Shown: piece after piece, positions 15,388 to 28,647 of the stretch | Position numbering within the stretch: the stretch's first letter is position 1 | How the letters are laid out: every line of letters begins with the position of its first letter | DNA from: Fidelibacterota bacterium | Lineage (GTDB): Bacteria; Fidelibacterota; Marinisomatia; Marinisomatales; TCS55 | Direction of reading: 5' to 3' | Assembly: GCA_014381755.1 (NCBI GenBank) | Contig: JACNLB010000068.1 | Location: 1-39,416, forward strand | Length of the DNA: 39,416 nucleotides | Made by a program: the position numbers and the translations under genes | Notes under the pieces: model-generated | What the model was told of the DNA's origin: nothing | What the model saw: the letters and a program-made list of their open reading frames with translations, nothing else | Databases searched by the model: none

Positions 15388-17986
15388 AAAGACCATGTTT
15401 CTTTTTCAACTCATCCAATTTTTGCAATGCTTGAATGGGCGTCATGGAATTCACATCCATATCATTGAGATCTTTTTTGAATTTAGCTTCCTGTTTTTCG
15501 AACATGGATATCTGTTTTGACGCCGACGGCGGAGCAGATGTTCCCGATTGGTCCGAAGATTCCAAATGATGACTTAAAATATCCTTCGCTCGGGAAATAA
15601 CACTCGTTGGCAAACCGGCCATTTGCGCCACATGAATTCCGTAACTCCTATCCCCCGGTCCGGGCATAATCTTTTTCAAAAAGACGATTTCGTCTCCAAA
15701 TTCCTTCACAGCAGCGTGATGATTCTCCAACCGCTCCAAAGAATGTTCAAGTTCCGTTAATTCATGGTAATGTGTTGCAAATAAAGTTCGGGCTGCAACT
15801 TCTTCGCGATTGTGCAAATACTCGGTAATGGACCACGCCAATGATAATCCATCAAAGGTGGCAGTCCCTCGTCCTATTTCATCCAGAAGAATTAAACTTT
15901 GGGATGTTGCATTATTCAAAATATTCGCCGCTTCAATCATTTCCACCAAAAATGTACTTTCACCACCGGCAAGGTTATCGCTGGCGCCCACTCGGGTAAA
16001 TAAACGGTCTACAATACCAATGGTAGCCTTTTTCGCTGGTACGTAGCACCCAATCTGAGCCATGAGTACAATCAAGCCAACTTGACGCAAATATGTGGAT
16101 TTTCCGGCCATATTAGGACCGGTAATGAGATGAATCTGACTTTTGTCTACATTCATCTTCAGGTTATTACCCACAAAACGGTCAGACGCCGGGAGCAGAT
16201 TTTCCACTACAGGATGACGTCCATCTTTAATATCGAGAACAGCGTCTGCAACTAGCGTCGGTTTACAATATTTCTTCTGAATCGCCAAATGGGAAAAAGT
16301 GGAAAGAACGTCGAGCCTGTTCAGCAGTTTTGCGTTAATCTGGATTCGGTCAGCCCTATCCATAATTTTCTGGCAGCATTCGGCAAATAATTCTGATTCA
16401 ATAGCCAAAATATCTTCTTCTGCGGACAGGATTTTTTCCTCGTATTCCTTTAGCTCTTCGGTGATATAACGCTCGGCGTTTACCAGCGTCTGTTTACGAA
16501 TATAGGTTTCTGGCACTTTATCTTGGTGGATCTTTGAAATTTCCAGGTAATAACCAAATACCCTGTTAAATCCCACTTTCAGTTTACTGATGCCCGTCTT
16601 TTCCCGTTCTGACTCCTGCATTTCTGCAATCCATTGTTTCCCTCCGCTGGCTAATTTCCGTAATTCGTCCAATTCTGTATTGATTCCATCTCGAATAACA
16701 TGGCCCTGTTGGAGTTGTGCAGGTACGTCTTCATTCATTTGTTCTGAAACCAATTCCACAACCGGATCGGTCTCCGCAAACGAATCGGCGGCTGAATTCA
16801 ATTTCTCAAGATCTGATGACTGTAGTAATTCTTTTAGTTTCGGTATACACTTCAAGCTTTCCTTTAATCCTATTATGTCTCGAGGATTGGCTTTTTTCTG
16901 GCTAATCTTGCCGAGGATTCGTTCTATATCCAAAACGTCATCTAAGACAGTCCGTACCTTTTTCAACAAACGTTTATTTTTTAAAAATCCCTCAACAATA
17001 TCCAATCGGTCATTCAGTTTCTCTATAACCGTCAGTGGTTGGGATAACCATTGTTTCAATAAACGTCCGCCGCCGTTGGTTACCGTTTCGTCCAATAAGT
17101 CCACCAGAGTTCCGTGGGTGCCTTGTGTCGCCAAGGACTTAAATACTTCCAGATTGCGTATGGTAAAGCCGTCCAGCCCCATAATGCCGTCATCGGCAAT
17201 GGAAGTCAAAGTTGTAATGTGGGACAGGGAACCATTCAATGCATGTTTCACATGATAAAAAATCGCGCCTGCTGCCGTGATGCCCTGTTCCAGATGACCA
17301 CATCCAAATCCTTTCAGCGTCCGCACGCTGAAATGTTCGGTAAGTGTGCGCTCGCCCTGATCGAAGGATAAGACCCAATCTTCCACCGTTGACACAAAGG
17401 GCTTTAGTTCCCGATACCAGTCCGTTGTGGAATAAACAATGCTCTCCGCCAACAACACTTCCCGGGGAGCGAATTTCCGCAGTGCTTCCTTCAATCCGGC
17501 TTCTGGACATTCTCCAATAAATAATTCTCCTGTGGACTGATCCAGCACGGCGTAACCGGCTTGATTGCGATGAGTATGGACACACGCCAAAAATTGATTC
17601 GATTTCTCATTCAGCGCTGCTTCGCTGGTAATGGTCCCGGGCGTTACCACTTCTACCACTTCCCGCTTTACAATACCTTTCGCCAGTTTGGGATCTTCCA
17701 CTTGTTCGCAGATGGCCACGCGATGTCCGGCTTTCACCAATTTGTGTAAATAATTATCGATGGCGTGATAGGGAAATCCTGCTAAGGCAACATTTCCCGC
17801 AGCACCGTTGGAACGCTTCGTTAGAACGATCCCCAGCACTTTCGCCGTAATGACAGCATCGTCACTGAATGTTTCGTAGAAATCACCCATGCGGAAGAGA
17901 ACGATGGCATCGCTGTACTGGCGCTTCACGTCCTCGTATTGACGCATAAGAGGAGTACTTTGTTGTTTGACTGGTTTAGCGCTCAT
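15386..17986 (-). CDS. mutS: DNA mismatch repair protein MutS
   Basis: Recognises mismatches and starts repair. The 866-aa length is typical of MutS1. The mismatch-reading Phe-x-Glu motif is present (MGDFYETF, about residue 37), followed by connector, lever and clamp domains. The ATPase has Walker A GPNMAGKSTYLRQ, the signature LAGGESTFLVEM and Walker B LILLDEIGRGTATFDG. A C-terminal stretch (KQISMFEKQEAKFKKD) includes a possible clamp-binding motif, QISMF. It overlaps selB as ATGA. No mutL is in the window. The C-terminus runs into a heptamer repeat. Confidence 0.97.
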   Translation of the reverse strand: MSAKPVKQQSTPLMRQYEDVKRQYSDAIVLFRMGDFYETFSDDAVITAKVLGIVLTKRSNGAAGNVALAGFPYHAIDNYLHKLVKAGHRVAICEQVEDPKLAKGIVKREVVEVVTPGTITSEAALNEKSNQFLACVHTHRNQAGYAVLDQSTGELFIGECPEAGLKEALRKFAPREVLLAESIVYSTTDWYRELKPFVSTVEDWVLSFDQGERTLTEHFSVRTLKGFGCGHLEQGITAAGAIFYHVKHALNGSLSHITTLTSIADDGIMGLDGFTIRNLEVFKSLATQGTHGTLVDLLDETVTNGGGRLLKQWLSQPLTVIEKLNDRLDIVEGFLKNKRLLKKVRTVLDDVLDIERILGKISQKKANPRDIIGLKESLKCIPKLKELLQSSDLEKLNSAADSFAETDPVVELVSEQMNEDVPAQLQQGHVIRDGINTELDELRKLASGGKQWIAEMQESEREKTGISKLKVGFNRVFGYYLEISKIHQDKVPETYIRKQTLVNAERYITEELKEYEEKILSAEEDILAIESELFAECCQKIMDRADRIQINAKLLNRLDVLSTFSHLAIQKKYCKPTLVADAVLDIKDGRHPVVENLLPASDRFVGNNLKMNVDKSQIHLITGPNMAGKSTYLRQVGLIVLMAQIGCYVPAKKATIGIVDRLFTRVGASDNLAGGESTFLVEMIEAANILNNATSQSLILLDEIGRGTATFDGLSLAWSITEYLHNREEVAARTLFATHYHELTELEHSLERLENHHAAVKEFGDEIVFLKKIMPGPGDRSYGIHVAQMAGLPTSVISRAKDILSHHLESSDQSGTSAPPSASKQISMFEKQEAKFKKDLNDMDVNSMTPIQALQKLDELKKKHGL

Positions 17987-19845
17987 AATTCCGCCCCTTT
18001 TAACCGCACATTTCCATCCCGTTCAGTCCAACCTTGCTTATCGGAATATTCCAGTACAGGAATGGCGAATTTCCGCGTTAAACCGCTCATGCGTTTAAAG
18101 TCTGCCACATTCATTTCACTTTGGATGTTAAAATGGTCTTTCATTGCTTGGCGGAGTTTAGCCATGTTTTGGCTGTGCATCCAGACACCGTTTTCGATTT
18201 CCACCACTTTATTTTCATTCTTTAATACGTGTAAAATCTCCAATATGTCCTTATGGCTCGTTTTCAATTTTTTGGACAATTCTTCAGTGTTCAATGGCGT
18301 AAATCCATTTTCCATTATCCCATCTTCCATCTTACGTGATATTTCTGCCGTTCCGCCTGCCAATTCCACTTTATGACTCGCCAATGCGACGCCCGTTCCG
18401 GCGGAACGAATAGATGCATTGTGTTCCATAATGTCCAGCATTTCAGCCAACCATTTTTCGCTAAAACCTACATCCTGTGCAAGTACGTCCGCTGACATGG
18501 CTTTGCGAAGTGGATTTTTCTCATGAAACTGTTCTAAACTTTTTACGATTAATTCGGAGCATGATTTCAGATTTTCGTCTGAATAAATAAACGTCCGCCG
18601 AGATGTGTTTAAATCCGTCTTTTTCACCAAATCCCTCATGGTGTTATCCGTCATTTGCAGTGCTCTCCCCCAATCAAATACCGTCTTTGGATTTCGTTTA
18701 AACGTCGCAACCAATTGCCTAAAACGTTTCTCCAGATTCAGATCCAATTCTGACACCCATTCTTTTATCTTTACTCCCTTGGGAATAAATGAGGTCAACA
18801 CCGTCCCGCCGCCCATGGTATGCATGGGAGAATAGGAACGCATAACAAAGCGGTCTTCACTGGCCATGACTGCAGGATGCTCCAGTTCAATGATGACATT
18901 TGCCGAACTGCCGGCGGTCATTTTCTTATTCGATGTTAAAAATACACGTGCCATCACTTCTGCCGTGCCCAAATGCACTCGCACTCTCTGGCGGTGCTTC
19001 AATTCTTTTTTCATATCTACCGTAAGCTGAATATGGGCAGTGAATTTCGAGACTGCTTGCAGTTTCCCGGGAGTAGCCAGCTCTGATCCGCGGAACACCT
19101 TTTCTGCGTCCACTCCGGATAAATTTACTGCCGCACGATCACCACGCTGCACGGTTTCTACTTCCGCACCATGGGACTGAATGCCCCGGACTTTCGATGA
19201 AATATTCCCCGGCAATACATCCACGGAATCTCCTTTTTTCAAGCTCCCGGAAATGACCGTTCCCGTGACCACCGTACCAAAACCGGTCATGGAAAAAACA
19301 CGGTCAACCTGGAGACGAAAAAAGCTCTCATCTTCTGACGGCTGAACTGCAGCTGCTCTCTTTTCCAATAAGTGTTTTAATTCGTCAATTCCACTATTTG
19401 TTTGTACGGATGTTCGTACCACATCCACGCTTTCAAAAATGCCTTCAGTCAATTCACGGATTTCCAGCTCGATGAGGTCCAGCCATTCTTCATCTTCTGC
19501 CAAGTCGGTTTTGGAGAGGGCTACCACACATTGGGGAATATTCAGCAGCTTCAGGATGTGCAAATGCTCCCGAGTTTGGGGCATAATGCCATCATCAGCC
19601 GCCACTACCAAAAGGGCAATATTGATGGTGGACACTCCCGCCACCATATTACGGATAAATTTCTCGTGACCGGGAACGTCAATAATGGTGACCGATTCAT
19701 TTAAGAAAGCAAATCCTAGGTCGATGGTCATACCCCGGGCTTTTTCTTCTGCCAAACGGTCCGTGTCTGTGCCGGTGAGTGCTTTCACCAATGCGGTTTT
19801 TCCGTGGTCAATATGCCCGGCAGTGCCGATGACAACTTGGGTCAT
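17983..19845 (-). CDS. selB: Selenocysteine-specific translation elongation factor SelB
   Basis: Delivers selenocysteyl-tRNA to UGA codons marked by a SECIS hairpin. The 620-aa length is typical. The GTPase domain has G1 GTAGHIDHGKTALVKAL, G2 GMTIDLGFA, G3 DVPGHEKF and G4 SKTD. Beta domains II-III follow (about 175-340), then C-terminal winged-helix repeats (about 370-620) for SECIS binding. Residues about 505-513 (MEDGIMENG) are encoded by an in-frame heptamer-repeat array in the linker between winged-helix units. It overlaps the selA stop as TAATG and mutS as ATGA. The organism therefore probably decodes some UGA codons as selenocysteine. Confidence 0.95.
   Translation of the reverse strand: MTQVVIGTAGHIDHGKTALVKALTGTDTDRLAEEKARGMTIDLGFAFLNESVTIIDVPGHEKFIRNMVAGVSTINIALLVVAADDGIMPQTREHLHILKLLNIPQCVVALSKTDLAEDEEWLDLIELEIRELTEGIFESVDVVRTSVQTNSGIDELKHLLEKRAAAVQPSEDESFFRLQVDRVFSMTGFGTVVTGTVISGSLKKGDSVDVLPGNISSKVRGIQSHGAEVETVQRGDRAAVNLSGVDAEKVFRGSELATPGKLQAVSKFTAHIQLTVDMKKELKHRQRVRVHLGTAEVMARVFLTSNKKMTAGSSANVIIELEHPAVMASEDRFVMRSYSPMHTMGGGTVLTSFIPKGVKIKEWVSELDLNLEKRFRQLVATFKRNPKTVFDWGRALQMTDNTMRDLVKKTDLNTSRRTFIYSDENLKSCSELIVKSLEQFHEKNPLRKAMSADVLAQDVGFSEKWLAEMLDIMEHNASIRSAGTGVALASHKVELAGGTAEISRKMEDGIMENGFTPLNTEELSKKLKTSHKDILEILHVLKNENKVVEIENGVWMHSQNMAKLRQAMKDHFNIQSEMNVADFKRMSGLTRKFAIPVLEYSDKQGWTERDGNVRLKGAEL
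18305..18332 (-). repeat. In-frame period-7 repeat inside selB (4 units)
   Basis: On the minus strand it reads AGATGGA, AGATGGG, ATAATGG, AAAATGG and is translated as part of KMEDGIMENGF. It matches the gene-end arrays in period and core. Unlike them it keeps the reading frame and lies within coding sequence. Confidence 0.65.
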
Positions 19846-21215
19846 TAAACGTCCTGAATTGCTTGAATAAGTCTGATAACCTGGTTCGGCAGAACCGCTT
19901 TCAGGTCGATATAAAATGTATTTCCTTTGGTGTAACCCACAACGGGGATATTTCCTGTTCGGAATATTTTAGCCAATTTAGATACCGATATTGTTTTGGG
20001 ATTGAACTTCAGTGCAGCACTGGGAATAGTTTCCACGGGAAGTGATCCGCTCCCTGCTTCCACCTTCGATTCCACTAACGAAATTCCTAGGTCTTTGATC
20101 TTCTTTTTGGGAATATCCGTCAAAATCTTCTCTCCCCGTTTCATGAGGGTCTTTTGAGATGTGGTCAGGAGTTTCAGTGATAAATTATCTCCGCTGACTT
20201 TTTCCTCTGAATGATACGTCCGTAATATTTCTTCCATGAGGACAATGGTCCACTTGTCACAGCGGTATGTTCGATAAAGTGCATTTTTGTGGATTTTGTT
20301 TACATATTTCTTTTTCCCCACAATGAGCCCCGATTGAGGTCCGCCCAATAGTTTATCCCCGGAGAAAGTAATAATATCGGCGCCTGTTTTTACTACACCT
20401 GCCACCAGTTCTTCCGGTGGGAGTCCCATTTTTGTCATATCCACCAAGGCGCCGGAACCAAGATCCGCTACCAAAGGAATACGTTTCTTTTTCGCTAATG
20501 CTGCTAAATCCGAGAGTGATACTTCTTTCGTAAATCCCTGCATCACGTAATTACTGGTGTGGGCCCAGAGAATGGCGCCGGTTTTTTTGGTGATTGCTTT
20601 TTCATAATCTTTCAGGTGGGTGCGGTTGGTGGTGCCCACTTCCACCAGATTGCAGTGGCTTTTACGCACCATGTCGGGGATACGAAATGAACCGCCGATC
20701 TCCACTTCCTGTCCCCGAGAAACGATAACGTCTTTACCTTCGGCAAATGTATTCAAGGCAATTAGGACTGCAGCGGCGTTATTATTGACAATTAAACTTT
20801 TTTCCGAACCGCAAATGGCAGAAAGTAATTCATTAATATGATTCTGCCGCTCGCCCCGTTTACCGGAATCTAGATCAAATTCAAGATTGACGTAACCTTC
20901 CAGTTTTTTGGTTGCATTTGCAATTACTTTTTTTGACATGGGCGCTCGGCCAAAACCGGTATGTAAAACTACGCCGGTGCCGTTAATGATATTTTTCATG
21001 GATGGTTTAGCTAATCGGTCAATTTCATTTATAATTAAATCAATAATTTCCTTACGATTGAGCTTTAATTTTCCTGCTTTAGCTTCTGCTCGAAATTGAC
21101 TTATTTCTGTTTTAATAATTTTGTTTATATAATTAATATGCAACTGTGTATCTTTGTTTACTTCAAGTAATACTTCAGATACAGATGGTAGTTGCTGGAG
21201 TTGATTCTTGCTCAT
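19845..21215 (-). CDS. selA: L-seryl-tRNA(Sec) selenium transferase
   Basis: Pyridoxal-phosphate enzyme that converts seryl-tRNA(Sec) to selenocysteyl-tRNA(Sec). The 456-aa length is usual. The PLP lysine is about Lys288 in FSGDKLLGGPQSG; upstream are INGTGVVLHTGFGRAP and VNNNAAAVLIALN. The C-terminal domain has the VGYTKGNTFYIDLKAV block. The ATG start has no Shine-Dalgarno site, and a near-palindrome (TTTCCACTAGTGAAA) abuts it. selA and selB are coupled by TAATG. selC (tRNA) and selD are not in the window. Confidence 0.95.
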   Translation of the reverse strand: MSKNQLQQLPSVSEVLLEVNKDTQLHINYINKIIKTEISQFRAEAKAGKLKLNRKEIIDLIINEIDRLAKPSMKNIINGTGVVLHTGFGRAPMSKKVIANATKKLEGYVNLEFDLDSGKRGERQNHINELLSAICGSEKSLIVNNNAAAVLIALNTFAEGKDVIVSRGQEVEIGGSFRIPDMVRKSHCNLVEVGTTNRTHLKDYEKAITKKTGAILWAHTSNYVMQGFTKEVSLSDLAALAKKKRIPLVADLGSGALVDMTKMGLPPEELVAGVVKTGADIITFSGDKLLGGPQSGLIVGKKKYVNKIHKNALYRTYRCDKWTIVLMEEILRTYHSEEKVSGDNLSLKLLTTSQKTLMKRGEKILTDIPKKKIKDLGISLVESKVEAGSGSLPVETIPSAALKFNPKTISVSKLAKIFRTGNIPVVGYTKGNTFYIDLKAVLPNQVIRLIQAIQDV

Positions 21216-22477: not shown

Positions 22478-23578
22478 TCATATTTGTATACGAATTTCTT
22501 CACAATTAGAATATACATCATCAAAAATGTGTTCTGCTTTCTTTTTATCCAGGCTGCACAATTTTGCAACTTCTAAAATATCATTTTTATCTGCATTTCC
22601 TTTATTCAAAATTGTCGTTGAATGATTTCCATCGTATCCGCTACTGGGAACTAAATCATAAGCTGGAGAAACAAGCCACTGTTTATTCTTCATGATGAAT
22701 GAAACGTTTTTTGCGTGATCATCTTTATTTCCGGTTAGAATATTAAAAACCATACGTCTAAATAATGTATATGCTTCTTCGATGTTTTTAGTTAATTCAA
22801 ACGCTATTTTAATTAAATCCACATAATCCAATGACGGAAAACGATGGTCTGCATAAAGCAATCCCGATGCAGAATGAATATGGATTCTTTTTCCATTACT
22901 CCGATCAAAACGTTTTACACCAAAATATTTTCCTTCTAATAATTGAGTTTCCGGCATTTCAATCCCGCATTTTTTTGCAATAATTGAATATTGATATTCA
23001 ATTTCACCCATATTTTCGGGATCATGAGCAGATCTGAATTTGACAATCCACGGATCGCCTTTAATGTTAATTAGAACTTTTGGTCTGGCGCCGCCGGATG
23101 AGCCGCCCATCTCAATCAAATCGTCTAACATTCCACTTTTATATTTGTTTTCGATCAATATTTTATGAACTTCCAATGCAAGAAGATTAAGATCGTCAAT
23201 TTGACCTTTTGACTTAAAAGCATAATCAGGTTCATACGATAAAATTCCCATACCAGACTTGCCGATTAAACTCAATTTATCCAGTAAAGACAATGAACCA
23301 GGTTGTATATTATTTTTCAATAAATATCTATCTATAAGCAAATTACCCCAACCATCGGGCAGGCTATCGTTAAATAAGCCGAATAATCCATTAAATGGAT
23401 CACGACGTGCCGTAAATGCACCGGCTTGCAATGGTAAATAAAACGGAGAAAGAGAAACGCCATTGCTTAAATAATCAGGATCATATTCAAAGACGCATAA
23501 TCTTTCCGGTGAAATCACCATCCGCCCCATGAATTGATCATTGTCGAATATATTTAACAGATTGATGGGCTCAAACAT
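22478..23578 (-). CDS. hipA: HipA-family serine/threonine kinase toxin
   Basis: Toxin half of a type II toxin-antitoxin pair; E. coli HipA phosphorylates GltX and triggers growth arrest through Rel. The 366-aa product is compact. The N-terminal subdomain has GVSLSPFYLPLQ and LPDGWGNLLIDRYL. The Gly-rich, autophosphorylation-prone loop is GGSSGGARPK, and the catalytic segment is NILTGNKDDHAKNVSF with a later PAYDLVPS (metal-binding Asp). All key elements look intact, so the kinase is probably active. It overlaps hipB by 8 nt and follows it, as usual. The target is unknown. Confidence 0.92.
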   Translation of the reverse strand: MFEPINLLNIFDNDQFMGRMVISPERLCVFEYDPDYLSNGVSLSPFYLPLQAGAFTARRDPFNGLFGLFNDSLPDGWGNLLIDRYLLKNNIQPGSLSLLDKLSLIGKSGMGILSYEPDYAFKSKGQIDDLNLLALEVHKILIENKYKSGMLDDLIEMGGSSGGARPKVLINIKGDPWIVKFRSAHDPENMGEIEYQYSIIAKKCGIEMPETQLLEGKYFGVKRFDRSNGKRIHIHSASGLLYADHRFPSLDYVDLIKIAFELTKNIEEAYTLFRRMVFNILTGNKDDHAKNVSFIMKNKQWLVSPAYDLVPSSGYDGNHSTTILNKGNADKNDILEVAKLCSLDKKKAEHIFDDVYSNCEEIRIQI

Positions 23579-23891
23579 TTCTGCCTCGCTGCCTTTCCTT
23601 TACCTTACTATTCTGAATAATATCATCTACACTTTGATATTGGTTTTCGGGAAATAACTGACGAAACTCATCTAAACTACCTAAAACCAAAGCAATTCGT
23701 AAAAGATGTTTTAATGAAATTTCATATTTGTGCTCAAATCGCTTTATGGATCCTAAACTAACACCAGATTTTTCTGATAACGATTGCTGGGCAATGTTTA
23801 GCAAAAGTCGTTTTTTGCGCATTCTTTTTGATACATTTTCAGCAATTGCATGTGGGTTAAAATCATCAATGTCAAAATTAACAATAGTCAT
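23571..23891 (-). CDS. hipB: HipB-like XRE-family antitoxin
   Basis: The 106-aa DNA-binding partner of the adjacent HipA. The helix-turn-helix covers about residues 30-75 (NIAQQSLSEKSGVSLGSIKRFE), followed by the LFPENQYQSVDDII tail typical of HipA-linked antitoxins. The start has an AAGGA site 7 bases upstream. It follows the rplS terminator, so the hip genes have their own promoter. By family knowledge HipB represses its own operon; AT-rich direct repeats upstream could be the operator. Confidence 0.88.
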   Translation of the reverse strand: MTIVNFDIDDFNPHAIAENVSKRMRKKRLLLNIAQQSLSEKSGVSLGSIKRFEHKYEISLKHLLRIALVLGSLDEFRQLFPENQYQSVDDIIQNSKVKERQRGRNV

Positions 23892-24048: not shown

Positions 24049-24090
24049 TAAAATAAAAAAACCCCCACCGTTTTAACCGATGAGGGTTTA
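24049..24090 (-). terminator. Rho-independent terminator after rplS
   Basis: On the minus strand AACCCTCATCG pairs fully (two G-U pairs) with CGGTGGGGGTT around a short A-rich loop and is followed by a T-rich tract. It lies about 20 bp after the rplS stop. The pairing is better on the minus strand than the plus, so it ends the smc-ffh-rpsP-rplS run before hipBA. Confidence 0.88.
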
Positions 24091-24111: not shown

Positions 24112-24453
24112 TTATCGTTTTTCGGCAATACGTGTTGCTTTACCGGAAAGTTTTCTCAAGTAATGCAATTTTGCTCTCCGCACTTTCCCGCGGCGCACAA
24201 CATTAAAATTGACTAACATGGGTGAGTGCAATGGGAAAATTCGTTCGACACCTACACCATTGGAGATCTTTCGAACGGTTATGGTTTCTTCAATTCCGCC
24301 GCCTTTCCGGGCAATCACCACACCGCGATACTTCTGAATACGCTCCTTGCCGCCTTCAACAACACGGACGTCTAATTCCACTGTATCGCCTGAATTAAAT
24401 ACCGGTAAATCTGTTTTTAATTGATCTTGGACTACTTCTTGTAATTTGTTCAT
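24112..24453 (-). CDS. rplS: 50S ribosomal protein L19
   Basis: Ribosomal protein at the 30S-50S interface. The 113-aa length is typical. The motifs [19 protein letters not shown] and [15 protein letters not shown] are L19 hallmarks, and the C-terminus [18 protein letters not shown] is basic. A GGAG site precedes the ATG. It is the last gene of the rpsP-khpA-rimM-trmD-rplS operon, a common bacterial order, and a terminator follows. Confidence 0.97.
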
Positions 24454-24456
24454 GTT

Positions 24457-25170
24457 TTACTCCGTAAGTGTACTTTTCTCTAAATATTTTTCCCATAAAT
24501 CCGGGCGTTTTGTTCGTGTTATATGTTCTCGTTGAGACTGTCGCCAGTCCTCGATTTCTTTATGATGGCCATTCAATAAAACATCCGGAACGGAAATTCC
24601 GGCGACTTCGCGGGGTTTCGTAAAATGAGGATTATCCAGCAGATCACCGTAAAATGTATCTGTTTCTGCCGATTCCCTGGAATTCAACACTCCCGGGATT
24701 AGCCTGACCATAGAGTCGATCATGATCATGGCAGGAATTTCTCCGCTGGTGACAACATAATCGCCGATGGAAAATTCATCGGTCACGTATTTTTCCACCA
24801 CTCGCTGATCAATTCCTTTGTAGTGACCGCAAATAAAAATAGCATGATTATTTTCACTGAATGCTGTAGCAGTTTCATGATTCCACGTTTTCCCCTGTGG
24901 AGACGGAAATACGATTCGAACATTTTTCTCATCCATCCATTTCAAAGCAGATTCAATTGCCTGAACCAATGGTTCGGCCATCATGACCATTCCGCTACCG
25001 CCGCCAAAAGGCGTATCGTCAATTTGGCGATAATTTCCCTTTCCAAATTTTCGTAAATCAACCACATTGTATTCAGCCGCATTTTCTTCATCAGCTTTAC
25101 GTAGCATACTTTGCTCAATAATGGTATTGACCATATCCGGGACAGGAGTAATTATAGCAATTTTTTTCAC
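24457..25170 (-). CDS. trmD: tRNA (guanine(37)-N1)-methyltransferase
   Basis: Methylates G37 next to the anticodon, preventing +1 frameshifts. The 237-aa protein has the SPOUT knot motifs: GGGSGMVMMAEPL, FICGHYKGIDQRVVE and IGDYVVTSGEIPAM. The start codon is GTG, overlapping the rimM stop as GTGA, which supports this choice. The gene sits in the rpsP operon with rimM and rplS, as in E. coli and many others. Confidence 0.97.
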   Translation of the reverse strand: MKKIAIITPVPDMVNTIIEQSMLRKADEENAAEYNVVDLRKFGKGNYRQIDDTPFGGGSGMVMMAEPLVQAIESALKWMDEKNVRIVFPSPQGKTWNHETATAFSENNHAIFICGHYKGIDQRVVEKYVTDEFSIGDYVVTSGEIPAMIMIDSMVRLIPGVLNSRESAETDTFYGDLLDNPHFTKPREVAGISVPDVLLNGHHKEIEDWRQSQREHITRTKRPDLWEKYLEKSTLTE

Positions 25171-25667
25171 AGTAATCCTTCCATTGGACGAATCATAATT
25201 ACGCTTACAACACTGTCCACGCCGATAACAATTTCATTTACGATGGGAATCAGTTTTTCGTCATTACCATTATGGATAACGTAGACATCGTTTGACGGCA
25301 GCCATAGAATATCAGTTAAAGTACCGACGAGTTCTCCGGATTCAGTGATAACAGTATAACCCAAAAGTTCTTTGGAAATGAGATCAGCATTATCACCACT
25401 TCTACCTTCAGCAAACAGTGTCTGTCCGATGAGCGTTTCAGCATCATCTCGTGACTGAACTCCGTCAAACTTGAACCGCCTTCTTTTTCCATGACCGATG
25501 GTTTTATTCAATTTGATTTCACGAGCCAAATCCGTTTCGAATCCAATTTGTAATTCACGTGATTCAATATATTCATCGAAGTAACGCGATAGAGGTTGGA
25601 GACGCACTTCGCCTCGGAGACCACTCACGCGTGTAATCTTGGCTATGGGATGAACTTTTTTACTCAT
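25167..25667 (-). CDS. rimM: 16S rRNA processing protein RimM
   Basis: Assists assembly of the 30S head and binds S19. The 166-aa product has the N-terminal RimM beta-barrel (KITRVSGLRGEVRLQPLS) and a C-terminal PRC barrel (ELLGYTVITESGELVGTL). Position between khpA and trmD is conserved. The ATG lies directly after the khpA stop, separated by 1 nt. Confidence 0.94.
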   Translation of the reverse strand: MSKKVHPIAKITRVSGLRGEVRLQPLSRYFDEYIESRELQIGFETDLAREIKLNKTIGHGKRRRFKFDGVQSRDDAETLIGQTLFAEGRSGDNADLISKELLGYTVITESGELVGTLTDILWLPSNDVYVIHNGNDEKLIPIVNEIVIGVDSVVSVIMIRPMEGLL

Positions 25668-25668
25668 T

Positions 25669-25902
25669 TCAGTCGATCACATCCAAACGAGCGCGTTTAC
25701 CGCCTTCTTTTGCATTCACAGCAAACACAAGTGTGCGAATAGCGGAAATATTGCGGCCGCGTTTTCCGATGACTTTTCCGTAATCACCTTCTCCTACGGT
25801 TAATTCAAAAATGATTCGCTGTTCTGTTTCCACTGGAGTCACTTTTACTTCTTCGGGTTTATCCACTAACTTTTTTACTATCAACTCGATCATTTCCTGC
25901 AT
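25669..25902 (-). CDS. khpA: KH-domain RNA-binding protein KhpA
   Basis: The 77-aa protein is a single type II KH domain with the GxxG loop GKRGRN in YGKVIGKRGRNISAIRT. KhpA-type proteins bind RNA and in some Gram-positives affect cell division; the role here is inferred. It has a strong AAGGAG site six bases before ATG. It sits between rpsP and rimM, the usual place for the ylqC gene. Translation from its own strong site may matter, since the preceding rpsP has an unusually long, repetitive 3' part. Confidence 0.93.
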   Translation of the reverse strand: MQEMIELIVKKLVDKPEEVKVTPVETEQRIIFELTVGEGDYGKVIGKRGRNISAIRTLVFAVNAKEGGKRARLDVID

Positions 25903-25920
25903 GGTATTCTCCTTGCAACT

Positions 25921-27306
25921 TTATTCGTCGCTTTTATTATCCTTTTCATCTTCCGAGGATTCTTCTTTTTCTTCGACCGGTTCGGCTTCTTTTTCTGTGG
26001 TTTCTTCTGGCACTTCCTCTTCTACTACTTTTTCATCATCAGTCTTTTCTTCCTCGGATGTTTCTTCTTCTACGTCCGGTTCAGCATCTGGTTCATCTTT
26101 TTCGTCTTCTTTTGATTCCTCTTCAACATCATCGCCATCTGAAGATACTTCTTCGGTTGAATCTTCAACTTTACTGTCATCAGTTTCTTCAGTCTTTTCT
26201 TCAGGTTTAGCCTCTTCAGCTTGGACTTCATCAGCTTTATCTTCTGTGGATTCTTCTTCTGCTGGTGCTACGTCGGCGTTTTCTTCTTTTGGTTCTTCAG
26301 TTTCAGCTTCCGGTTCATCACTTTTAGGCTCGACAGCTTTTTCTTTGGAATCTTCTTCAACTGCTTCTTCCTTTTTTTCTTCTTGTTCAGCGTTTCCGTC
26401 AGCAGAATCAACCGCTTTTTCAACTTCTTTAGCCTCATCGCTTTCCGTTACTTCTTCAGCAACATCTTCAGTTTTGTCTTCAACTACAGGTGAGTCCACT
26501 TGTGCTTCTTCTGTTGTTGTTTCTGCTTCTTCATCTTTCGCTTCTACTTTTTCATCAGTCGCCTCTTCTGCTACTGCTACTACTTCTGCTGTTTCTTCTT
26601 TTACCGGCGCATCTTCAGCAACATCTTCAGTTTTGTCTTCAACTACAGGTGAGTCCACTTGTGCTTCTTCTGTTGTTGTTTCTGCTTCTTCATCTTTCGC
26701 TTCTACTTTTTCATCAGTCGCCTCTTCTGCTACTGCTACTACTTCTGCTGTTTCTTCTTTTACCGGCGCATCTTCAGCAACATCTTCAGTTTTGTCTTCA
26801 ACTACAGGTGAGTCCACTTGTGCTTCTTCTGTTGTTGTTTCTGCTTCTTCATCTTTCGCTTCTACTTTTTCATCAGTCGCCTCTTCTGCTACTGCTACTA
26901 CTTCTGCTGTTTCTTCTTTTACCGGCGCATCTTCAGCAACTGCTTCTGCTTCTTTCTCAGCTCGCCCTTTTTCAACTTCTTCCCGTTCAAGAGCCCATTT
27001 TTTCATTTCTTTTTCTACAGCCGCATCATCCAGTCCCTGACGAATCAAGTGCCAGCGATAAGCCAATCCAGTTCTTTTTAATAGATTGTGAGCTGTTTCT
27101 GTAGTTTGAGCTCCTTCTTTCAGCCAATGCAATACTCGATCTTCTTTTAGAGCATAATTCTTTTCATCATCACGTTCGAGTGGATTAAACCAGCCCAATT
27201 GTTCGATGGCAGCACCATCACGGCGAGCCCGTTCATCCATCACCACCAAGCGGTAAAAAGGTCTGTTTTTTCGTCCGATTCGTTTCAGTCTTATTTTCGT
27301 AGCCAA
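25921..27306 (-). CDS. rpsP: 30S ribosomal protein S16 with a very long acidic repeat tail
   Basis: Residues 1-95 are a normal S16 (KIRLKRIGRKNRPFYRLVV, then GWFNPLE). A helix follows (about 95-120). Then comes about 340 residues of extremely Glu/Asp-rich, low-complexity sequence. S16 is usually 80-90 aa, or up to about 180 in Bacteroidetes from memory, so 461 aa is exceptional. Residues 125-283 are three identical 53-residue repeats beginning EDAPVKEETAEV. The start is TTG: the nearest in-frame upstream codon is the ffh stop TAA, so no ATG is available, and AAGGAG lies six bases upstream. The first gene after ffh, it feeds khpA-rimM-trmD-rplS. Confidence 0.93.
   Translation of the reverse strand: MATKIRLKRIGRKNRPFYRLVVMDERARRDGAAIEQLGWFNPLERDDEKNYALKEDRVLHWLKEGAQTTETAHNLLKRTGLAYRWHLIRQGLDDAAVEKEMKKWALEREEVEKGRAEKEAEAVAEDAPVKEETAEVVAVAEEATDEKVEAKDEEAETTTEEAQVDSPVVEDKTEDVAEDAPVKEETAEVVAVAEEATDEKVEAKDEEAETTTEEAQVDSPVVEDKTEDVAEDAPVKEETAEVVAVAEEATDEKVEAKDEEAETTTEEAQVDSPVVEDKTEDVAEEVTESDEAKEVEKAVDSADGNAEQEEKKEEAVEEDSKEKAVEPKSDEPEAETEEPKEENADVAPAEEESTEDKADEVQAEEAKPEEKTEETDDSKVEDSTEEVSSDGDDVEEESKEDEKDEPDAEPDVEEETSEEEKTDDEKVVEEEVPEETTEKEAEPVEEKEESSEDEKDNKSDE
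26453..26940 (-). repeat. Three perfect 159-bp tandem repeats inside rpsP
   Basis: Copies at 26461-26619, 26620-26778 and 26779-26937 are identical base for base by direct reading, with short shared flanks. Each unit is 53 codons and keeps frame. Perfect identity, with no silent differences, suggests very recent duplication or ongoing unequal recombination. Copy number may vary between cells or be miscounted by assembly. Confidence 0.95.
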
Positions 27307-27318
27307 GATATTCTCCTT

Positions 27319-28647
27319 TTAACTTATTCCCATAAAATTACCCATTGGCATTTTGCCGGGCTTCATTTTTCCAAATTGCTTCATCATTTTTTTCATTTGT
27401 ACAAACTGTTTCAATAATTGATTCACTTCCTGTAATGAACGGCCCGATCCTAATGCAATCCGCTTTCGACGGCTGCCATCTATGATTGTAGGATTTTTCC
27501 GTTCTGCGGGAGTCATGGAATTAATGATGGCTTCCGTCCATAAAAGCTGGCGGTCTTCCATATTCATTCCTTTCATCAGTTTCCGATTCATACCGGGCAT
27601 CATTCCCATAAGTTGCTGAAGTGATCCCATTTTTTTTAGCTGCATTAACTGCTGCTGAAAATCTTCAAGATTAAATTCGTTTCCAAGCATTTTCTTTTCC
27701 AGCATGTCCACTGTTTTTTCATCCGCCACGTGTTCTGCCTTTTCCACCAATGAAATAACATCACCAAATCCCAAAATCCGATCGGCCATTTGCTTGGGAT
27801 TAAATGGTTCCAATCCATCCAACTTTTCTGATACACCGGCAAATTTGATTGGCGTTCCTGTCACTTGCCTTATGGAAACGGCTGCCCCGCCTCTGGCATC
27901 GCCATCCAACTTTGTTAATATCGTACCCGTCAAAGGCAATGCTTCTGAAAATGCTTTAGCAGAGTTTACTGCATCTTGTCCGGTCATACTGTCTGCCACA
28001 AATAAAATTTCATTTGGTTTTACTTTATCCGAAATCTGTTGAATTTCATTCATCATTTCGCCATCAACATGCAAACGGCCGGCAGTATCCAGAATGACAA
28101 CATCTGCTTTTTCACTTTTCCCTTGGGCAACAGCATTCGCACAAATGGCCACAGGATCGCCGACACCTTCATCATAAACAGGTACATCAATCTGTGAGCC
28201 TAATAATTGTAATTGCTCAATAGCAGCTGGGCGATATACATCCGCTGCGGCCAATAATACCTGTTTCTTTTGATCTGTAAATATCTTGGCCAATTTTGCA
28301 CACGTGGTTGTTTTTCCAGATCCTTGAAGACCGGCCATCAAAATAACGGACGGTTTTCTGCTTAAATCTATTTTCGCTTTTTCATCTCCAAGAATATGGA
28401 CCAATTCCTCATGAATAATTTTAATAAATTGCTCACCGGGTCTGATGGATTTTAATACTTTTGTTCCTTCTGCTTTTTTCTGGACTTGAGCAATAAAATC
28501 TCGAGCAACGTGTAAATTCACGTCAGCTTCCAACAGGACGCGTCGAATCTCTCGTGACGTCTCCTGGATATTACTATCCGTAATTTTTCCCAGTCCACGT
28601 AAGCGACGGAAAATAGTATCAAATCTATCTGTTATTTGTTCAAACAT
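27319..28647 (-). CDS. ffh: Signal recognition particle protein Ffh
   Basis: GTPase that binds SRP RNA and signal peptides to target membrane proteins. The 442-aa product has the N domain (1-85), then the G domain with GLQGSGKTTTCAKLAK, DTAGRLHVDGEMM and TKLDGDARGGA. The methionine-rich M domain is at about 300-442 (MMPGMNRKLMKGMNMED, and SGRSLQEVNQLLKQF). It lies downstream of smc and 12 bp before rpsP. The ffh-rpsP-rimM-trmD-rplS order is conserved in many bacteria. No SRP RNA gene is seen nearby. Confidence 0.97.
   Translation of the reverse strand: MFEQITDRFDTIFRRLRGLGKITDSNIQETSREIRRVLLEADVNLHVARDFIAQVQKKAEGTKVLKSIRPGEQFIKIIHEELVHILGDEKAKIDLSRKPSVILMAGLQGSGKTTTCAKLAKIFTDQKKQVLLAAADVYRPAAIEQLQLLGSQIDVPVYDEGVGDPVAICANAVAQGKSEKADVVILDTAGRLHVDGEMMNEIQQISDKVKPNEILFVADSMTGQDAVNSAKAFSEALPLTGTILTKLDGDARGGAAVSIRQVTGTPIKFAGVSEKLDGLEPFNPKQMADRILGFGDVISLVEKAEHVADEKTVDMLEKKMLGNEFNLEDFQQQLMQLKKMGSLQQLMGMMPGMNRKLMKGMNMEDRQLLWTEAIINSMTPAERKNPTIIDGSRRKRIALGSGRSLQEVNQLLKQFVQMKKMMKQFGKMKPGKMPMGNFMGIS

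Follow-up and report, generated by a model that had tools for sequence, protein, structure and literature searches.

A long, mostly acidic C-terminal tail on ribosomal protein bS16 across Candidatus Neomarinimicrobiota

Introduction

In several bacteria, ribosomal protein bS16 is long. The protein is 192 aa in P. gingivalis and 188 aa in F. johnsoniae, where both Bacteroidota lengths are those of PDB sequences only, and it is 162 aa in M. tuberculosis, 156 aa in M. smegmatis, and 147 aa in C. acnes. In C. acnes, the proximal part of the bS16 extension binds uS4, the end of the extension is unresolved, and the extension accompanies a short h17 (PMC10085706). The ends of the Bacteroidota proteins are also largely unmodelled. 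As judged from Foldseek target lengths, the structures contain 85 of the 188 residues of F. johnsoniae S16 (7jil) and 97–118 of the 192 residues of P. gingivalis S16 (9i5v).

Acidic, disordered tails rich in Glu and Asp are found on histone and ribosomal-protein chaperones, where they shield basic RNA- or DNA-binding proteins. These chaperones are separate factors, whereas at the locus described here the polyanion belongs to the ribosomal protein itself. The locus lies in a 39,416-nucleotide stretch of DNA (the window) that we analysed as a whole. Our search of the literature, with most subscription journals outside its scope, found no papers mentioning Marinimicrobia together with 'ribosomal protein S16'.

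Results

The window contains rpsP, the gene for bS16, on the minus strand at 25921..27306. It encodes 461 aa from a TTG start (27304–27306). The Ribosomal_S16 domain spans residues 9–69 (Pfam PF00886, E-value 1.3e-24, 86.3 bits against a cut-off of 27) and the protein passes NCBIfam TIGR00002 with 100 bits against a cut-off of 45.3. A previous sequence-only reading of this DNA had proposed an intact S16 core followed in frame by an acidic tail of about 340 residues, approximately four times the size of the core. The domain matches bear out the intact core and the single 461-aa frame bears out the tail. The interval given in that reading, 25921–26995, does hold the tail (residues ~104–461) but misses the core, which is at ~27037–27306. 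The ribosome-binding region (27307..27331, minus strand) reads AAAAGGAGAATATC ahead of the TTG, and the same AGGAG-TTG layout occurs in relatives. Among 106 phylum loci read, with some genomes represented twice, the start codon is TTG in 74, ATG in 20, and GTG in 12. A search of the window's own genome gave one S16, which excludes an additional S16 paralogue with a special role.

The long reading frame is real and arises neither by chance nor from a frame error. In the tail, the coding frame has 0 stops and 45% Asp/Glu; the other two forward frames are rich in Lys and Arg and have 22 and 51 stops. Open S16 frames of 247, 332, and 359 aa are present in three genomes that each consist of a single contig (G063, G184, and G185, respectively). 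A sequencing error or fused frame is thus excluded by the relatives, the stop-dense alternative frames, and the single-contig genomes. The sequence-only reading had allowed that the frame might stop or shift beyond residue 120, and this is countered by the open tails in relatives. A Ser-rich open reading frame of 409 aa lies antisense to the gene (25811–27040, plus strand) and probably just mirrors the Glu-rich codons mechanically.

The protein can be divided into three parts. The S16 core (residues 1–90; 27037..27306, minus strand) has a net charge of +8 and a pI of 10.3, and is modelled by AF2 with a pLDDT of 81–96 per block of ten residues. It is followed by a proximal extension (residues 91–142; 26881..27036, minus strand) that is a conserved segment by alignment and has a net charge of –10. 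AF2 predicts a helix at residues 94–142, with confidence up to about residue 120, and Trp104 is invariant across 21 aligned phylum members. The remaining residues, 143–461 (25921..26880 including the stop, minus strand), form an acidic, low-complexity tail that is predicted to be disordered, since most of it has a pLDDT below 50. These ~320 residues have a net charge of –113, a pI of 4.05, and 45% Asp/Glu, and they lack Arg, Leu, Ile, Phe, Tyr, Trp, Met, Cys, and His. It is because of this long, floppy, strongly negative tail that the protein is about five times the usual length of S16.

One explanation for these features is that the tail is cut from a precursor so that the ribosome receives a normal-sized S16 and the acidic peptide is discarded or used elsewhere. 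The boundary between the conserved helix and the variable tail would permit such cleavage. However, the alignment has no conserved motif at this boundary beyond the helix itself, and a peptide destined to be discarded would not be expected to keep the lineage-typical lengths described below. We therefore regard processing as improbable.

The window protein resembles the known long S16 proteins in plan but not in scale. With phmmer it aligns to P. gingivalis bS16 over residues 1–185, weakly in the low-complexity part. NCBIfam PRK14521 (186 positions), which we take to be the long S16 of Bacteroidota, scores 97 bits over residues 1–184 of 461, under its 209-bit cut-off. PRK14520 (156 positions), presumably the long S16 of Actinomycetota, scores 87.8 bits, under its 165-bit cut-off. 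As in Bacteroidota, a core is followed by a proximal extension, and in P. gingivalis this includes a Trp segment and a low-complexity Glu/Ala end, but the window protein has 461 aa rather than ~190 and is far more negative. As in Actinomycetota, a C-terminal extension has a disordered end, but the extensions of that group are ~65–80 residues. Because long S16 proteins with largely unmodelled ends are already known, the window tail takes a familiar type of ribosomal protein extension to an extreme. The rationale from C. acnes does not transfer, because the h17 region of 16S rRNA here looks similar in length to that of E. coli. At locus L214 it has 74 nt between flanking markers, as in E. coli, and loci L215 to L219 are similar by eye, with boundaries judged from the sequence only. 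We therefore rejected the idea that the S16 extension compensates for a short h17.

The nearest named genomes are from the uncultured phylum Ca. Neomarinimicrobiota (Marinimicrobia), with core identities of up to 93%. The S16 family was found in 194 of 245 genomes from this phylum and we found no internal stops in the S16 frames listed for these 194. The complete, distinct sequences (n = 65) range from 163 to 461 aa with a median of 244 aa; the window protein is the longest of them and the next has 433 aa. No complete short S16 was found among these 65. The distal part is negative in 63 of them. Exceptions to the acidic rule are the tails of the related S16 proteins at L142 and L145, which are net positive, and some tails, such as that at L018, carry just a mild negative charge; a strongly negative tail is thus not universal. 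Lineages hold characteristic lengths, with 317–461 aa in five members of the window's genus that have no gaps, 345–384 aa in related genus g5, 298–330 aa in genus g6, and open frames of roughly 150–275 aa in a family with small genomes (f15). As a comparison, 41 loci from other phyla in the same search encode S16 of 80–115 aa, although these loci were picked by core similarity and are therefore no survey of those phyla. The net charge of the S16 core is +8.4 in the phylum versus +6.5 in the other phyla sampled. Since the core is just slightly more basic, neutralising the core alone fails to explain a charge of –113.

The record length in the window stems from a recent tandem duplication. A repeat search revealed a 159-bp (53-codon) unit that occurs in tandem at 26453..26940 on the minus strand, in 3.1 copies without differences, with the copies in the protein beginning at residues 126, 179, and 232. 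Without two of these units the protein would have 355 aa, which falls inside the 317–433 aa of four other genus members that have no long sequence gap in the tail. The repeats in S16 tails also break draft assemblies. Of 44 relatives (window included), 12 have a contig end no more than 700 nt from the S16 core on its tail side, where ~1 is expected, and 0 have one on the other side; exact repeat counts are therefore uncertain, including the draft count in the window. Loci with contigs ending inside the tail include L003, L008, L016, L022, and L043. S16 is absent from nine of 94 phylum genomes with completeness of 90% or more and contamination of 5% or less, and tail-driven assembly breaks may be part of the reason for such gaps in some good drafts. 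Separately, the tails at L057, L064, L075, and L083 switch from EEAPAEE-like text to Lys-rich KKKHQ/LKKL-like or Arg-rich text. This resembles a frame slip, which could be either an assembly error or real slippage.

We then compared substitution patterns in the tail and the core. Tails can be aligned between close relatives only and the alignments are often rich in gaps. In 15 of 15 pairs of relatives, some of which share a sequence and are hence not all independent, dN/dS of the tail was below 1 (0.18–0.99). In the same pairs, dN/dS of the core was mostly 0.15 or less, with one value of 0.24 and one undefined by saturation. Across 40 tails with a length of 80 residues or more, we observed 27 windows of four acidic residues versus 184 expected from shuffling, so that acidic runs of this length or longer are depleted approximately sevenfold in the pooled tails, a contrast that the repeats inflate and that may partly reflect repeat ancestry. 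Three tails without long exact repeats (L034, L026, and L027) had 0 such windows versus 9.0, 7.3, and 8.9 expected. The pooled tails contain 0.3% Arg versus 11% Lys. Changes at acidic codons comprised 56 of the E-to-K type, seven of the E-to-G type, and 99 synonymous changes. Because E-to-K changes are tolerated, acidity is not kept site by site. As far as sequence comparison goes, these patterns fit selection acting on the overall composition of the tail and not on single acidic sites.

The main rival to a functional long tail is near-neutral expansion, in which the cell benefits from or tolerates a shorter acidic tail and the extra length is drift through slippage and unequal recombination. 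The tail would then be a purine-rich, repeat-prone stretch whose only restraint is selection against peptides that are toxic or prone to aggregate. The identical 159-bp repeats, the gappy alignments confined to close relatives, the spread of lengths over 163–461 aa, and the tolerance of E-to-K changes are all consistent with this, and the tails avoid residues that could be expected to cause harm in a free, disordered chain. Yet a tail of ~340 residues with one S16 per ribosome would amount to ~5% of ribosomal protein mass, by an estimate from general knowledge. The lack of any complete short S16 among those found in the phylum, the lengths characteristic of each lineage, and tail dN/dS values that are all below 1 (one at 0.99) also argue against drift as the whole explanation. 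We consider near-neutral expansion possible, perhaps one chance in four.

We also examined whether the tail might act during translation. Read along the minus strand, the cluster comprises ffh, rpsP, khpA, rimM, trmD, and rplS, in this order, and then a terminator-like hairpin. The ffh gene (27319..28647; Pfam SRP54, 2.6e-75) ends 12 nt before rpsP. Downstream are khpA (25669..25902; Pfam KH_KhpA-B, 3.5e-21), rimM (25167..25667) and trmD (24457..25170), both assigned with Pfam, rplS (24112..24453; Pfam), which encodes a tailless bL19 of 113 aa, and a likely intrinsic terminator at 24059..24089 with a 12-bp stem followed by a T run, all on the minus strand. This order agrees with the khpA-rimM-trmD-rplS neighbourhood proposed in the sequence-only reading, but, contrary to what had been thought, rpsP does not head the cluster, because ffh sits immediately upstream. 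Next to rplS, at 22478–23891, are genes for a HipA-like protein and an adjacent HTH protein, likely a toxin-antitoxin-type pair. Farther along, selB and selA adjoin at 17983–21215 (NCBIfam equivalogs) and encode selenocysteine machinery. A search for tRNA genes across the window found none.

If ribosomes were slowed or lost while translating the acidic stretch, the amount of S16 made, the Mg2+ state, or expression of khpA-rimM-trmD-rplS could be set or sensed in this way. As with MgtL-type leader peptides and EttA targets, the ribosome here meets an acidic stretch during translation, and such stretches can destabilise ribosomes (PMC11282234). The tail ends 18 nt before khpA and the trmD operon is without known regulation (PMC10931766). 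However, the effect in E. coli needs the acids within approximately the first 30 residues (PMC11282234), whereas the acidic tail in the window starts after residue 120, which makes translational control of this type unlikely. The approximately sevenfold avoidance of runs of four or more acids is also the opposite of a stall signal. In addition, khpA has its own AGGAG, located in the 18-nt gap after rpsP, and its own ATG. These features weaken the previous suggestion that translation of the downstream genes depends upon ribosomes passing through the repeat, and we think a translational device improbable.

To place the S16 tail among the other ribosomal proteins of this organism, we looked at the part of the S10/spc/alpha cluster that was fetched (locus L154, with rplQ outside it). 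No other acidic ribosomal protein tails were seen there, and acidic tails were thus rejected as a general trait of ribosomal proteins in this organism. In the same genome (contig C130), uS2 (L155:1640-2596) is 319 aa and has a mixed-charge C-terminal extension of ~90 residues with a Lys-rich end. A basic uS5 tail as partner of the S16 tail was also rejected, because the Lys-rich protein is uL5; uS5 open frames are 165–193 aa in 30 genomes. The uL5 protein (L154:7179-7940, contig C126 of the same genome) has a Lys-rich N-terminal extension of ~60 residues, which is common to the genus and also occurs in some other lineages.

This raises the idea that the acidic bS16 tail binds a basic ribosomal protein tail, such as the uL5 N-terminus, within or between ribosomes. 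The net charge of ~+24 over the first 86 residues of uL5 is in the right direction, and S16 length correlated with uL5 N-terminal length (rho 0.50, p 0.02; 21 genomes, uncorrected for relatedness). By contrast, the correlation of charges was not significant (p 0.09). There are also mismatches in both directions, with long uL5 extensions accompanying mild S16 tails in G048 and G059 and long S16 tails accompanying short uL5 extensions in G009 and G016. Moreover, uL5 belongs to the other subunit. Pairing of the two tails seems very unlikely to us, slightly more so than processing or a translational device.

Discussion

Our preferred reading is that the bS16 tail is a disordered polyanion that is tethered by a helix to the body of the 30S subunit and kept for its bulk charge, with an electrostatic role. 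We give this a probability of roughly 0.55. The proximal part (residues ~91–120, with the helix and Trp104) would most likely dock on the 30S body beside bS16; docking on uS4 is suggested by analogy with C. acnes only. The distal part (~320 residues, –113) would most likely project from the solvent side as a disordered polyanion. Projection of the tail from the ribosome had been suggested in the sequence-only reading and appears likely given the low-confidence AF2 tail and the unmodelled ends in known long S16 proteins. Taken as a whole, that interpretation is partly supported.

We infer that the tail would be retained for bulk charge, solubility, and charge spacing and not for its sequence. 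Its probable role is to shield or escort the basic bS16 core along with basic partners while the 30S subunit assembles, to act as a negative brush that cuts unwanted contacts of finished ribosomes, or both. More tentatively, and in our opinion at odds of less than even, it may represent an encoded polyelectrolyte brush. In such a brush, one disordered ribosomal protein chain with a net charge as low as about –130, short acid runs, and a lineage-tuned length would govern how ribosomes assemble, are spaced, or cluster in the cytoplasm.

Structures cannot answer what ribosomal protein tails do because the ends of these tails are not resolved. If the tail remains on the ribosome, every 30S subunit in a whole phylum of widespread marine bacteria would have a polyanion chain hanging free, and the purpose of disordered ribosomal protein tails would become a testable question.
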